Shown piece by piece: positions 29,423 to 36,654 of a stretch of DNA of 64,000 nucleotides; within the stretch, counting starts at the first letter, position 1; each line of letters opens with the position of its first letter. Both the position numbers and the translations under genes were made by a program. The stretch spans positions 62,001 through 126,000 of the forward strand of contig NZ_JAUYTP010000022.1 in assembly GCF_030695125.1 (NCBI RefSeq), read 5' to 3'. The notes under the pieces are model-generated. The model ran no database searches. It had not been told where the DNA came from and saw only the letters and a program-made list of their open reading frames with translations. Source of the stretch: Allobosea sp. (GTDB taxonomy: Bacteria > Pseudomonadota > Alphaproteobacteria > Rhizobiales > Beijerinckiaceae).

Positions 29423-30310
29423 TCATCCCTCCAGCTTCGTCCCCAGCCGTCCCGCGAGGTCCTGGATGTACTGCCAGGCGGTGCGGCCGGAGCGCGAGCC
29501 GCGCGTCGTCGCCCATTCGAGCGCCTCGTGGCGCAGGGTCTGCGCATCGATCGTCAGCCCGAAATGGCCGGCATAGCCCTCGATCATCGCGAGATACTCG
29601 TCCTGGCTGCATTTGTGGAAGCCGAGCCAGAGGCCGAACCGGTCCGAGAGCGAGACCTTCTCCTCGATCGCCTCGCCCGGATTGATCGCGGTCGAACGCT
29701 CATTGTCCATCATGTCGCGCGGCATCAGATGGCGGCGGTTCGAGGTCGCGTAGAACACGACATTGCCGGGCCGCCCCTCGACGCCGCCATCGAGCGCGGC
29801 CTTCAGCGATTTGTAGGAGGTGTCGTCGCCGTCGAAGGAGAGATCGTCGCAGAAGACGATCGCGCGGTGCGCGTCCGGGCGCAGCAGGCCCATCAGCACG
29901 GGCAGGCTCTCGATGTCCTCGCGGTGGATTTCGATCAGCTTGAGGGGCAGGGCCTGGCCGGCGAGGCGCGTGTTGGTGTCGGCATGGACCGACTTGACCA
30001 GCGACGATTTGCCCATGCCGCGGGCGCCCCAGAGCAGGACATTGTTGGCCGGCAGGCCGCGCGCGAAGCGCTCGGTGTTCTCCGCCAGCGTGTCGCGGAC
30101 GCGGTCGACGCCGCGCAGCAGCGACAGCGCCACGCGGTTGACGCGGGCGACGGGCGAGAGTTCGCTGCCGGCCGGATGCCAGACGAAGGCGTCGGCGAGC
30201 GTCAGGTCGGCGGGCTTGCGCGCGGGCGGCGCGATCCGCTCGAGCGCATCGGCGATGCGCAGCAGGGCGGTCAGCGTCGCATCGGTGTCGGTCTTGAAGG
30301 GGACGGTCAT
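29423..30310 (-). CDS. DUF815-family P-loop ATPase
   Basis: 295 aa. AAA-type ATPase of the DUF815/COG2607 family, with no defined role. Walker A is WGARGMGKSSLVK, Walker B is IVFCDDLSF and a sensor-1-like VVFYATSNRRHLMP follows. DRFGLWLGFH and the C-terminal SGRTAWQYIQDLAGRL are family-typical. An upstream ATG at 30403 would add 31 Arg/Pro-rich residues; 30310 (MTVPFKTDTD) is preferred. It diverges from yajC. Confidence 0.88.
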   Translation of the reverse strand: MTVPFKTDTDATLTALLRIADALERIAPPARKPADLTLADAFVWHPAGSELSPVARVNRVALSLLRGVDRVRDTLAENTERFARGLPANNVLLWGARGMGKSSLVKSVHADTNTRLAGQALPLKLIEIHREDIESLPVLMGLLRPDAHRAIVFCDDLSFDGDDTSYKSLKAALDGGVEGRPGNVVFYATSNRRHLMPRDMMDNERSTAINPGEAIEEKVSLSDRFGLWLGFHKCSQDEYLAMIEGYAGHFGLTIDAQTLRHEALEWATTRGSRSGRTAWQYIQDLAGRLGTKLEG

Positions 30311-30463
30311 GGCGGGCCTTCGGGCGGGTCTCGACAACGGCCGTACCCGGCGGTACGGCGCTCCAGAGGGTAAACGGCGTGTCGCGCCAAAGCGCAAGCC
30401 CATTGCGCGAACAGCGCCAAGCCCATAGGTGATGAGCGCTGCCGGCGAGCCAGGCGCGTCCGA

Positions 30464-30577: not shown

Positions 30578-30904
30578 GTGATCACCCCCGCTTTCGCCCA
30601 GGCTGCCGGCGCCGGTGGTTCCACCGACATGCTGATGTCGCTGGTGCCCTTCGTGCTGATCTTCGTGATCATGTGGTTCCTGATCATCCGTCCCCAGCAG
30701 AAGCGGGTGAAGGCGCATCAGGAGATGATCAAGAACGTGCGGCGCGGCGATACGGTCGTGACCTCCGGCGGTATCATCGCCAAGGTGACCAAGGTGACGG
30801 ACGATGCTGAACTCGAGGCGGAAATCGCCGACGGCGTCAGGGTCAAGCTCGTCAAGGGCATGATCACCGACGTTCGCGCCAAGGGCGAGCCGGTCAAGAG
30901 CTGA
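30578..30904 (+). CDS. yajC: Preprotein translocase subunit YajC
   Basis: 108 aa, one N-terminal transmembrane helix (LMSLVPFVLIFVIMWFLI) then the family motif RPQQKRVKAHQEMI and GDTVVTSGGIIAKV. It is an accessory of the SecDF complex in the inner membrane. The start is GTG, preceded by AAGGAG nine bases upstream. It heads yajC-secD-secF. Confidence 0.94.
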   Translation: MITPAFAQAAGAGGSTDMLMSLVPFVLIFVIMWFLIIRPQQKRVKAHQEMIKNVRRGDTVVTSGGIIAKVTKVTDDAELEAEIADGVRVKLVKGMITDVRAKGEPVKS

Positions 30905-30976: not shown

Positions 30977-32587
30977 ATGCTCCGTTTCCAGACCCGCAAG
31001 GTCATCGTCGTCCTGCTCGTGCTGCTCTTCGGCTGCGGTTTCGCGCTGCCGAACCTGTTTTCGCCCGAGACCCGCAAGGCGATCGAGCAGGGCGCGCCGT
31101 CCTGGATTCCGCGCATCCTGCTGCCGATCCATGCCGTCGTTCTCGGCCTCGATTTGCAGGGCGGCTCGCATGTGCTGCTCGAGATCGACCGCGCCGATCT
31201 GGTGCGCAGCCAGGTGACGCAGCTGCGCGACGACGTGCGGCGCATCCTGCGCGAGGAGCGTGTCGGGTTCTCGGGCGGCATCGGCATGACCGGGCGCGGC
31301 GTGAGCGTGCGCGTTCCCGAGGCCGCCGACCGGGCCAAGCTTCTGCCGAAGCTGCGCGAACTCGCGCAGCCGATCGGCACCCTCGGCGCCTTCGGGCCGT
31401 CGGGCAACCAGACCATCGACATCGCCGAACAGCCCGATGGGCTGATCCAGCTGTCGGTCACGGAGGCCGGCGCCAATGAGCGCGTGCGCCGTGCCGTCGA
31501 GCAGGCGATGGAGGTGCTGCGCCGCCGCGTCGATGCGCTCGGGACGACCGAGCCCAACATCCAGCGCCAGGGCCTCGACCGCATCCTCGTCCAGGTGCCG
31601 GGCCTGCAGGACCCGCAGCGGCTGAAGGATATTCTCGGCCAGACCGCCAAGCTGCAGTTCCGCATGGTCGCCGACAGCCAGGGTGGCGATGTCGACATGC
31701 TGCCCTCGCAGGATGCCGGCGGCTCGCTGGTGCCGGTCGAGCGCCGTGTCATCGTCGAGGGTGAGGATCTGATCGACGCGCAGCCCGCCTTCGATTCGCG
31801 GACCTCGCAGCCGATCGTGAATTTCCGCTTCAACATCCGCGGCGCCCAGCGCTTCGGCCAGGCGACGACCGAGAATCTCGGCCGGGCGCTCGCCATCGTG
31901 CTCGACAACAAGGTCATCTCGTCCCCGGTCATCCAGTCGCCGATCACCGGCGGCTCGGGCCAGATCTCCGGCAACTTCACCGTCGAATCGGTCAACAACC
32001 TCGCCATCCTGCTGCGCGCCGGCGCGCTGCCGGCGAAGATGACGATCGTCGAGGAGCGCACCGTCGGCCCAGGCCTGGGCGCCGATTCGATCCAGGCCGG
32101 CAAGATGGCGACGCTGATCGCCTGCGTGCTGGTGATCCTTTACATGATCGGCACGTATGGCGTGTTCGGCCTGATCGCCTCGATCGCGCTATTGGTGCAT
32201 GTCTGCCTGATCTTCGGGCTGATGTCGGTTCTGGGCGCGACGATGACGCTGCCGGGCATCGCCGGCATCGTCCTGACGATCGGCACGGCGGTCGATTCCA
32301 ACGTGCTGATCTATGAGCGCATGCGCGAGGAATCGCATCAGGGACGCTCGCTGGTCTCGGCGCTGGAGGCGGGTTTCCAGCGCGCCTTCGCCACGATCAT
32401 CGATTCCAACGTCACCATGCTGATCGCGGCGCTGGCGCTGTTTGCGCTGGGGTCGGGCCCGGTGCGCGGCTTCGCCGTCGTGTTCATTCTCGGCATCCTG
32501 ACCACCGTCATCACGGCGGTGACGCTGACCCGGATGCTGATCGCGCTGTGGTATCGCTGGGCCCGCCCCAAGGCCCTGCCTTTCTGA
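30977..32587 (+). CDS. secD: Protein-export membrane protein SecD
   Basis: 536 aa. Six transmembrane helices and a large periplasmic P1 domain. Seen: GLDLQGGSHVLLEID after helix 1 and the conserved GTAVDSNVLIYERMREE in the membrane half. SecDF uses the proton gradient to pull proteins out of the Sec channel. secF follows 30 bases later. Confidence 0.96.
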   Translation: MLRFQTRKVIVVLLVLLFGCGFALPNLFSPETRKAIEQGAPSWIPRILLPIHAVVLGLDLQGGSHVLLEIDRADLVRSQVTQLRDDVRRILREERVGFSGGIGMTGRGVSVRVPEAADRAKLLPKLRELAQPIGTLGAFGPSGNQTIDIAEQPDGLIQLSVTEAGANERVRRAVEQAMEVLRRRVDALGTTEPNIQRQGLDRILVQVPGLQDPQRLKDILGQTAKLQFRMVADSQGGDVDMLPSQDAGGSLVPVERRVIVEGEDLIDAQPAFDSRTSQPIVNFRFNIRGAQRFGQATTENLGRALAIVLDNKVISSPVIQSPITGGSGQISGNFTVESVNNLAILLRAGALPAKMTIVEERTVGPGLGADSIQAGKMATLIACVLVILYMIGTYGVFGLIASIALLVHVCLIFGLMSVLGATMTLPGIAGIVLTIGTAVDSNVLIYERMREESHQGRSLVSALEAGFQRAFATIIDSNVTMLIAALALFALGSGPVRGFAVVFILGILTTVITAVTLTRMLIALWYRWARPKALPF

Positions 32588-32617: not shown

Positions 32618-33571
32618 ATGCGTCTGCTTCGCATCGTTCCCGATGGTACGACTTTCAAATTCGTCCGCTTCCGGCGTTTCAGCTACCCGTTCTCGGCTGC
32701 CTATTCGCTGCTGGTGCTCTTCCTGTTCCTGACGGTCGGGCTGAATTTCGGCATCGATTTCCGCGGCGGTACGCTGATCGAGATGCAGTCCAAGGCGGGA
32801 CGGCCGGATATCGCGCAGGTCCGGCAGAGCGCCAATGCGCTGGGCTTCGGCGAGGCCGAGGTCCAGGAATTCGGCGCGGCCGGCGAAATCTCGATGCGCT
32901 TTGCCCTGCAGCCGGGCGGCGAGGTGGCGCAGCAGCAGGTCGTGGTCAAGGCGCGCGACGCCTTCTCGGCGGCTTATGATTTCCGCCGGGTCGAGACGGT
33001 CGGTCCGCGCGTCTCCGGCGAGCTGGTCCAGGCCGGCACGCTCGGCGTCGTGCTCGCGATCATGGGCGTGCTGATCTATCTCTGGTTCCGCTTCGAGATG
33101 CAGCTCGCGATCGGGGCGATCCTGGGCACGCTGCACGACATCGTGCTGACGCTGGGCTTCTTCCTGATCACGCAGCTCGAGTTCAACCTGACCTCGATCG
33201 CGGCGATCCTGACCATCGTCGGTTATTCGCTGAACGAGACCGTGGTGGTGTTCGACCGCACGCGCGAATTGCTGCGACGCTACAAGACGATGTCGATTCC
33301 CGACCTGCTCGACCTTTCGGTGAACTCGACGCTGTCGCGCACGGCGATCACCTCGACCACGACGGTGCTGGCGCTGGTCGCGCTGGTGATCTTCGGCGGC
33401 ACGGCGATCGAGGGCTTTGCGCTGGTGATGCTGTTTGGCGTCGTCGTCTGCACCTATTCCGCGATGTTCATCTCGACGCCGGTCCTGCTCTATCTCGACG
33501 TCCGGTCGGGTTTCAGCCGCTCCGAGGGCGCCGACGACAAGCTGCCCGCCGGGGCCAAGGCCAAGAACTGA
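32618..33571 (+). CDS. secF: Protein-export membrane protein SecF
   Basis: 317 aa, six transmembrane helices. Seen: NFGIDFRGGTLIEMQ after the first helix, and GYSLNETVVVFDRTREL with SRTAITSTTTVLALVAL in the membrane domain. Partner of SecD. AAGGAG precedes the ATG. The next gene starts 20 bases after the stop, so they are probably co-transcribed. Confidence 0.96.
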   Translation: MRLLRIVPDGTTFKFVRFRRFSYPFSAAYSLLVLFLFLTVGLNFGIDFRGGTLIEMQSKAGRPDIAQVRQSANALGFGEAEVQEFGAAGEISMRFALQPGGEVAQQQVVVKARDAFSAAYDFRRVETVGPRVSGELVQAGTLGVVLAIMGVLIYLWFRFEMQLAIGAILGTLHDIVLTLGFFLITQLEFNLTSIAAILTIVGYSLNETVVVFDRTRELLRRYKTMSIPDLLDLSVNSTLSRTAITSTTTVLALVALVIFGGTAIEGFALVMLFGVVVCTYSAMFISTPVLLYLDVRSGFSRSEGADDKLPAGAKAKN

Positions 33572-33591: not shown

Positions 33592-33969
33592 ATGCCCCGC
33601 TTCGACGGTTTCGTTCCCGGCCGCCACCCTCTCGACGCCTTCGGCGCCGGCGGCTTCCGCTTCGCCGGCATGGGCCATGTCGGCTCGATCCTGGCGACGC
33701 CGGCGGGAATCGCGATCTGGCCGGTGACCTGTTTTGCCGACGTCACCGCACAAAGCTTCCAGCGGGTGCTGGACGAAGCCGACACGATCGACTTCCTGCT
33801 GATCGGCACCGGCGCCGACATCGCCTTCATTCCCCACGCCTGGCGCGCCCTGCTCAAGGAGCGCGGCATCACGGTCGAGGGCATGGCGACCGGCGCCGCG
33901 GCGCGAACCTACAATGTGCTCGTCGGCGAGGATCGCCGCGTCGCCGCCGCGCTGATCGCGGTGGATTAG
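33592..33969 (+). CDS. Mth938-like domain protein (DUF498, NDUFAF3 homologue)
   Basis: 125 aa. Compact alpha/beta domain with FRFAGMGHVGSILATPAGIAIWPV near the N-terminus (positions 33657-33725), the IDFLLIGTGADIAFIP core and EGMATGAAARTYNVL. It belongs to the Mth938/DUF498 family, whose human member NDUFAF3 is a respiratory complex I assembly factor. The bacterial role is not established. It sits directly after secF. Confidence 0.87.
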   Translation: MPRFDGFVPGRHPLDAFGAGGFRFAGMGHVGSILATPAGIAIWPVTCFADVTAQSFQRVLDEADTIDFLLIGTGADIAFIPHAWRALLKERGITVEGMATGAAARTYNVLVGEDRRVAAALIAVD

Positions 33970-34148
33970 GGCGGCCTGCGCCGCTGCGCGGCCTTTGCGG
34001 GTGAGGCTGCGCCCGGCGTCGCGTGGTCCGGCCCCATTCGCGTCGGCCAAATCGCGTCCCCCATGTCCGAGAGGCGTAGCCAGCGACCCGCGCCTCGTCC
34101 TACACTGCCGCATACGTGGCCAGGGGGCAGGCACCGGATCGAGGCCAG

Positions 34149-35045
34149 ATGATGCCGCAGGCAACCGAGACCGACCGTCGCAGCGAGACCACGCCTTCGG
34201 CGCTGCCGCAGGCCTATGCGCACTGCGCCAGCGTGGTGCGCGAGCAGGATCACGACCGCTACATCGCCTGCCTCTACGCGCCCGAATCGCAGCGCCCGGC
34301 CTTGATGGCGCTCTATGCCTTCAGTCTGGAGATTGCCCGCGTGCGCGCGCTGGTCAGCGAACCGCTGCCGGGCGAGGTGCGGATGCAGTGGTGGCGCGAT
34401 CTGCTCGAGGGGCAGAGTGCCGGCGAAGTGCAGGCCCATCCGGTCGCGGCCGCGCTGCTCGACACCATCGCCCGCTACCGCCTGCCGATCGCGCCGCTGA
34501 CCGGGCTGATCGAGGCGCGCATCTTCGATCTCTATGACGACCCGATGCCGTCGCAGCGCGATCTCGAGGGCTATGCCGGCGAGACCGCGAGCGCGCTGAT
34601 CCGGCTGGCCTCGATCATCCTCGCCAATGGCCGCGATCCCGGCGGGGCGGCGGCCGCGGGCTATGCCGGCGTCGCTTATGCGCTGACGGGGCTGATGCGC
34701 GCCTTCCCCTGGCATGCGGCCGAGGGGCAGGTCTATCTGCCCGGCGACATCCTCGCCCGCAACGGCGTCACCCGCGACGACATCGTGCGCGGGCGCGGCG
34801 GGCCGGGCGTGCTCTATTCGCTGAAGGAGATGCGCGCGATCGCGCGCGGGCATCTGGGGAAGCTGCGCGAGTTGCGGGCGACGATCCCGCCCGCGGTGAT
34901 GCCGGCCTTCCTGCCGGTGGTGCTGGTCGAGCCCTATCTCAAGCGCATGGAGCGCTCGGGCTACGATCCCTACCGCACGATCATCACCATGCCGGCTTGG
35001 CAGCGGCAATGGGCGATCTGGCGCGCGGCGAAGGCGGCTGGCTGA
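34149..35045 (+). CDS. Squalene/phytoene synthase-fold protein (NDUFAF6-like)
   Basis: 298 aa with the trans-isoprenyl-diphosphate synthase fold. The first Asp-rich motif expected after the ALYAF segment is absent: the sequence reads ALYAFSLEIARVRALVSE with no DxxxD. PLPGEVRMQWWRDLLEG and DLYDDPM are present. This pattern matches the NDUFAF6/COG1562 branch rather than true phytoene synthase, so catalysis is doubtful. GAGG precedes tandem ATGs at 34149 and 34152; a GTG at 34116 is less likely. No carotenoid genes are nearby. Confidence 0.83.
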   Translation: MMPQATETDRRSETTPSALPQAYAHCASVVREQDHDRYIACLYAPESQRPALMALYAFSLEIARVRALVSEPLPGEVRMQWWRDLLEGQSAGEVQAHPVAAALLDTIARYRLPIAPLTGLIEARIFDLYDDPMPSQRDLEGYAGETASALIRLASIILANGRDPGGAAAAGYAGVAYALTGLMRAFPWHAAEGQVYLPGDILARNGVTRDDIVRGRGGPGVLYSLKEMRAIARGHLGKLRELRATIPPAVMPAFLPVVLVEPYLKRMERSGYDPYRTIITMPAWQRQWAIWRAAKAAG

Positions 35046-35165: not shown

Positions 35166-36572
35166 TTACTCCGCCGCCTGAGCCTGCTCCCCGCCGGCCC
35201 AGGCCTCCATCTCGACCTTCGCGCGCGCGGTCAGCGCATGCTTGCGGGCGACGCTCTTGGCCGGGCCCTTCAGCTTCTTGCCGTCGGGGCCATGCGTCGC
35301 CTGGCCCTCGATATGGGGAAACAGCCCGAAATTGATGTTCATCGGCTGGAAGGAGCGCGGGCCTTCGTCGATGGTGACGATGTGGCCGCCGGTGATGTGG
35401 TTGACCAGCGCGCCCAGCGCCGTTGTCGCGGGCGGCAGGTCGAGCGCCTGGCCGAGCCGCTCGGCCGCCGCCATGCGGCCCGCCAGCAGGCCGATCGCGG
35501 CGCTTTCGACATAGCCCTCGCAGCCGGTGATCTGCCCGGCAAAGCGCAGGCGCGGATCGGCTTTCAGGCGGAGCCGCTCGTCGAGCAGTTTCGGCGAGTT
35601 GAGATAGGTGTTGCGGTGGATACCGCCGAGCCGCGCGAACTCGGCGTTCTGCAGGCCCGGGATCATCCGGAAGATCGCGGCCTGCTCGCCATATTTCAGC
35701 TTGGTCTGGAAGCCGGTCATGTTGAACAGGGTGCCGAGCGCATTGTCCTGGCGCAGCTGCACCACCGCATAGGCCTTGACCGTCGGGTTATGCTTGTTGG
35801 TCAGGCCGACCGGCTTCATCGGGCCCCAGCGCAGGGTCTCGCGGCCGCGCTGCGCCATCACCTCGATCGGCAGGCAGCCGTCGAAATAGGGCGTGCCCTC
35901 CCATTCCTTGAACTCGGTCGTCTCCGCCGCGAGCAGCGCGTCGATGAAGGCCTCGTACTGGTCGCGGTCGAGGGGGCAGTTGATGTAGTCGGCGCCGGTG
36001 CCGCCTGGACCCGCCTTGTCATAGCGCGACTGGAACCAGGCCTGGTCCATGTCGACCGAATCGAAATGCACGATCGGGGCGATGGCGTCGAAGAAGGCGA
36101 GCGCATCCTCCCCGGTCAGCGACTGGATGCCAGAGGCGAGGGCGGGCGAGGTCAGCGGGCCGGTGGCGATGATGACGCTGTCCCAGTCCGCCGGGGGGAG
36201 GCCCGCGATCTCGGCGCGGTCGATCGTGACCAGCGGATGGGCCTCGAGCGCCGCGGTGACGCCCTGGGAGAAGCCGTCGCGGTCGACGGCCAGCGCGCCG
36301 CCGGCCGGGACCTGATGGGCGTCGCCGGTCGCCATGATCAGCGAATCGAGCCGGCGCATCTCCCAGTGGAGCTGGCCCACCGCGTTGGAGAGCGAATCGT
36401 CGGAGCGGAAGGAGTTGGAGCAGACGAGCTCGGCCAGCCCTTCCGTCTTGTGCGCCTCGGTGCCGCGGACGGGCCGCATCTCGTGGAGGATGACGGGGAC
36501 GCCGGCCCTGGCGATCTGCCAGGCGGCTTCGGAGCCGGCGAGACCGCCGCCGATGATGTGAACGGGTTCCAT
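35166..36572 (-). CDS. trmFO: Folate-dependent tRNA U54 methyltransferase TrmFO
   Basis: 468 aa flavoprotein. It makes ribothymidine at position 54 of tRNA using methylenetetrahydrofolate and FADH2. Seen: the FAD-binding [15 protein letters not shown] at the N-terminus, [14 protein letters not shown], and [19 protein letters not shown] near the end. ATG at 36572 matches the family N-terminus. A longer in-frame start at 36653 is rejected, because it would extend across an upstream terminator hairpin. Confidence 0.94.
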
Positions 36573-36621
36573 CGCCTCGATGTGTCGCCCGCCGCCGCCG
36601 ACGTCAAGGGAAGCCGGGCCC

Positions 36622-36654
36622 GAAATGCAAAATGCCCGCCTTGCGGCGGGCATT
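36622..36654 (-). terminator. Rho-independent terminator after the DUF1127 gene
   Basis: On the minus strand: stem AATGCCCGCC / GGCGGGCATT with loop GCAA, then TTGCATTT. It separates the DUF1127 gene from trmFO, so the two are not one transcript. Confidence 0.75.

Follow-up and report, generated by a model that had tools for sequence, protein, structure and literature searches.

Homologues of the complex I assembly factors NDUFAF3 and NDUFAF6 follow yajC-secD-secF in an ancient bacterial gene cluster

The window analysed here, a 64,000-nt stretch of the Allobosea sp. genome, contains a compact run of genes on the plus strand that begins with yajC, secD and secF and ends with two genes whose human relatives act in the assembly of respiratory complex I. 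A LysM/M23 gene lies upstream in the window, and the cluster is bordered by genes on the minus strand:

29423-30403, minus strand: DUF815 AAA ATPase (PF05673, 347 bits), divergent neighbour of yajC
30578-30904, plus strand: yajC, which opens the sec cluster (PF02699, 99.6 bits; TIGR00739, above cut-off)
30977-32587, plus strand: secD (TIGR01129, 462 bits, above cut-off)
32618-33571, plus strand: secF (TIGR00966, 281 bits, above cut-off)
33592-33969, plus strand: DUF498/Mth938-family protein of 125 aa (PF04430), homologue of NDUFAF3
34149-35045, plus strand: NDUFAF6-like protein of the SQS_PSY fold (PF00494, 204 bits), without the catalytic motifs
34335-34349, plus strand: site of the first squalene synthase DxxxD motif, here ARVRA (from the alignment)
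34701-34715, plus strand: position of the second DxxxD motif, occupied by AFPWH, i.e. AxxxH (from the alignment)
35166-36653, minus strand: trmFO (TIGR00137, 544 bits), convergent neighbour

The secF stop codon and the ATG of the DUF498 gene are separated by 20 bp, and the DUF498 gene sits directly behind secF in relatives too. On the same strand, 179 bp lie between the DUF498 gene and the ATG of the squalene-synthase-like (SQS-like) gene. The open frame of the latter (34116-35045, plus strand) begins with GTG, and an ATG at 34149 or 34152 is the likelier start. By protein similarity, the closest named loci are those of Microvirga, Kaistia and Methylobacterium, which marks the source as an alphaproteobacterium of the Hyphomicrobiales type. 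A gene for an IalB-family protein (PF06776; 37313-37927, minus strand) is also found near the cluster.

The assignment of the gene after secF to the Mth938 family, proposed in the initial annotation, is borne out by a match to PF04430 of 104.2 bits (curated cut-off 33; E 4.8e-30) that covers profile positions 2-109 of 109. A genome-wide profile search identified this gene as the single PF04430 member in the genome; among solved structures, 2fi9 and 2fvt come closest to it. Since a PDB search yielded no recognisable NDUFAF3 or NDUFAF6 chain, the human sequences used below are provisional and serve as leads only; they agree with published residues and lengths (G77, R122, Q99, 333 aa, AxxxD/AxxxH), with the length of 333, Q99, AxxxD and AxxxH of NDUFAF6 fitting PMC8007014, PMC4992684 and PMC12470011. 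The provisional human NDUFAF3 (C3orf60) shares the PF04430 domain with the window protein over its whole length and scores 96-97 bits with a profile of alphaproteobacterial DUF498 proteins, 71 bits with one built from secDF-linked non-alphaproteobacterial loci and 67 bits with a gamma/beta profile; the window protein, in contrast, is bacterial and lacks a targeting sequence. Human AAMDC (C11orf67, PDB 2ab1) has the Mth938 domain as well and is picked up by the profile, but it is distant, with 30 bits to the alphaproteobacterial profile. A tree of 110 DUF498 residues gave the provisional NDUFAF3 no firm placement, its resolution being limited because the sequences are too short. Divergent DUF498 copies (~40-80 bits) occur at loci L107 and L113 and in genomes G312, G322, G212, G220 and G242; in several genomes the divergent form is a second copy, none of which was seen beside secDF.

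The next gene carries the Pfam label of squalene/phytoene synthases, so that it could be taken for a regular synthase of hopanoids or carotenoids (HpnC, HpnD or CrtB) that lies next to secDF by chance. These head-to-head prenyl synthases share its fold (PDB 4hd1, 8is6, 5iys). Scores of the window protein against the equivalog models are, however, far below their cut-offs (HpnD 114.6 bits, cut-off 278.6; HpnC 54, cut-off 250; CrtB likewise), and the genome encodes its second SQS_PSY protein elsewhere (G000:C4). Neither DxxxD motif is kept in any of 42 aligned relatives, the second site reading AxxxH in 22/42, and a clade of 57 SQS-like rows stands apart from canonical squalene and phytoene synthases, HpnC/D and CrtB with support of 98/93. 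The sequence thus refutes the reading as a synthase placed by chance, to which we assign a negligible probability; judged from its residues, the protein is a dead prenyl synthase.

The initial annotation had likened this squalene-synthase-fold protein to NDUFAF6, and the likeness holds. The provisional human NDUFAF6 (C8orf38) groups inside the SQS-like clade, matches the SQS-like profile with 235 bits, where motif-bearing canonical synthases reach at most 114, and is 31% identical to the window protein over 252 residues. These comparisons support a relationship that is specific to the SQS-like group and does not extend to true squalene synthases. NDUFAF6 has likewise lost its DxxxD motifs, the human protein having AxxxD and AxxxH (PMC8007014, PMC12470011), with AxxxH reported at the second site (PMC12470011). 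Its fungal, plant and prokaryotic orthologues have the same fold, the same double loss and AxxxH at the second site; the window gene differs in being encoded beside secDF. The human disease change Q99R, located on the provisional sequence, produces the residue type usual in bacteria (R/K in 40/42).

To follow the gene order, we drew 153 genomes evenly from the class of the window, 82 of which have DUF498, and mapped the neighbours at 81 DUF498 loci besides the window with profiles grown from the proteins of the window. The yajC gene lies upstream on the same strand in 80/81 loci and secD/secF within 1.6 kb in 78/81, which excludes chance adjacency; the SQS-like gene follows downstream in 57/81. 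A search with the SQS-like profile returned 80 named loci of the Hyphomicrobiales type. Among the 77 that were readable, a script placed DUF498 upstream of the SQS-like gene in 76 (in the 77th, L220, the two overlap), sec genes are present in 72, and 71 have the SQS-like gene next to both. Outside the class, the order yajC-secD-secF-DUF498 recurs in families f138, f141 and f160 (loci L170, L171, L172 and L177), followed by differing genes; at L170 a PTPS (QueD-like) gene takes the place of the SQS-like gene. The linkage, for which the initial annotation had proposed a neighbour survey, is therefore not limited to one lineage, and the cluster yajC-secD-secF-DUF498-(SQS-like) is ancient and widespread.

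Conserved order does not by itself imply a shared process. We give even odds to the view that, whether the two genes act in complex I assembly or elsewhere, their position behind secF is inherited synteny only and carries no information on a link between SecDF insertion and complex I. Neighbours that have no role in complex I are kept too, namely DUF815 (62/81 loci), M23 (55/81) and, on the opposite strand downstream, trmFO (43/81). At 15 non-alphaproteobacterial (gamma/beta-type) loci no secDF lies within 8 kb of DUF498, and these genomes have Nuo. Moreover, many relatives have an unrelated gene inserted between DUF498 and the SQS-like gene, frequently in the opposite orientation; it encodes either a membrane protein of the Urate_ox_N type or a superoxide dismutase of the Fe/Mn type (e.g. 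L044:3099-3779 and L062:7151-7939). On the other hand, DUF498 stays behind secF or yajC more often than DUF815, M23 or trmFO stay in place, and it does so outside the class amid other downstream genes. It also remains directly behind yajC at L061 and L075, from which secD and secF have gone; in these two genomes a secF match lies elsewhere, inside a frame of ~890-940 aa. The idea of a missing constant gene in the interval from DUF498 to the SQS-like gene was rejected, the intervening genes being variable.

In the class set, all 82 genomes with DUF498 have NuoD above the cut-off, and the genomes lacking DUF498 divide into 48 with NuoD and 23 in which NuoD is absent or below the cut-off. DUF498 and the SQS-like gene occur together in 66 of these genomes, are both missing from 61 and occur singly in 26 (10 and 16). 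In a phylum-wide set, NuoD accompanies DUF498 in 143/147 genomes; of the four exceptions, three belong to family f141 and are incompletely assembled, and the fourth, G174, has a divergent DUF498 on a 4.1-kb contig (L175), a locus too short to judge sec adjacency. G174 is the only clear DUF498-bearing genome without NuoD or NuoC.

Genome size confounds the association within the class, because no class genome of at least 2.5 Mb lacks NuoD: all clearly NuoD-less class genomes are small, and among those with NuoD, DUF498 is present in 64/70 of at least 3 Mb and in 2/28 below 2 Mb. The test was therefore repeated outside the class. There, among genomes of at least 3 Mb, NuoD is present in 25/25 with DUF498, and DUF498 is absent from 19/19 listed NuoD-less genomes (p 0.0025, although the genomes are not independent). 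Counted by family, 18 NuoD-containing families have DUF498 and 15 do not, compared with 1 and 9 of the NuoD-less families (p 0.026), a modest association. Co-occurrence is thus strong in one direction: DUF498 is almost never present without complex I. The 48 class genomes that have NuoD and no DUF498 indicate that DUF498 is not essential for complex I, and the many complex I genomes without it argue for a helper and not a requirement.

One pattern among these genomes concerns the architecture of complex I itself. In all seven non-alphaproteobacterial families in which NuoC lies in a frame of ~590-630 aa, i.e. as a fused NuoCD (f140, f147, f152, f153, f154, f158 and f167), DUF498 is absent, and it is present in 15 to 18 of the 26 families with unfused NuoC and NuoD. 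The DUF498/NDUFAF3 family might help to join separate NuoC and NuoD and be dispensable where these are fused, an idea we regard as a long shot; since the families with the fusion probably form a single lineage, one event may account for the association.

Human data suggest what the two proteins may do. NDUFAF3 binds NDUFS2, NDUFS3 and NDUFS7 and also associates with ND6 (PMC4992684), NDUFAF6 has a role in ND1 biogenesis (PMC8007014), and NDUFAF3, C8orf38 and C2orf56 show tight co-evolution in eukaryotes (PMC3436739). We therefore favour conserved roles, with DUF498 acting on the NuoB/C/D module and the SQS-like protein on NuoH. By analogy with the human factors, the DUF498 protein would act as a chaperone for NuoB, NuoC and NuoD, peripheral subunits of the Q module, as these reach the membrane, and the SQS-like protein, having lost both metal-binding Asp motifs, would be a membrane-bound chaperone in the biogenesis of the NuoH (ND1) core. 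Our preferred reading, to which we give a probability of about 0.6, is that the locus represents the bacterial version of an old cluster whose last two genes encode complex I assembly factors. A literature search found no knock-out data for bacterial DUF498 or SQS-like genes and no experiment on the bacterial SQS-like protein.

Alternatively, the two proteins could have a more general task in membrane or lipid biology, such as the handling of isoprenoids by the SQS fold, and have acquired a complex I role only in mitochondria. Genomes with complex I that lack both genes are numerous, a PF04430 match is found in the control set for Methanosarcina, and in a model of the Candida orthologue the SQS fold retains a large cavity (PMC8007014). 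We consider such a general function unlikely, as DUF498 practically never occurs without NuoD and none of the 42 SQS-like relatives has kept the catalytic Asp motifs, a loss they share with human NDUFAF6.

The initial annotation saw in this neighbourhood an ancestral link between membrane insertion and complex I assembly that mitochondria inherited. The data support the two family assignments, the wide linkage, the strong association of DUF498 with complex I and the kinship with NDUFAF6; that either bacterial protein assembles complex I is a prediction, and a functional tie to SecDF or a shared step, as opposed to a frozen gene order, is a hypothesis. Unrelated neighbours are also conserved in order, which calls for caution about SecDF-YajC handing over NuoH, and we hold the idea that insertion by SecDF-YajC passes directly into the assembly of complex I to be a tentative and somewhat doubtful proposal.

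The linkage was, to our knowledge, already published in 2009: an abstract by Saada et al. (AJHG) reportedly used gene conservation analysis to connect NDUFAF3 both with the membrane-insertion cluster of SecF/SecD/YajC and with C8ORF38 (NDUFAF6), and the neighbours of bacterial DUF498 match those reportedly named there. The prokaryotic NDUFAF6 group and its motif loss are likewise already published. Our results are therefore a well-supported confirmation and not a discovery; what they add are counts, evidence that the linkage reaches outside the class, the dependence on complex I and the factor that confounds it, and the pattern seen with fused NuoC-NuoD. Defects in NDUFAF3 and NDUFAF6 cause fatal or severe complex I disease in humans. 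Their bacterial relatives occur in organisms that are tractable and have a simple complex I, so that the roles of both proteins, and any hand-over from SecDF/YidC, would be directly testable there.
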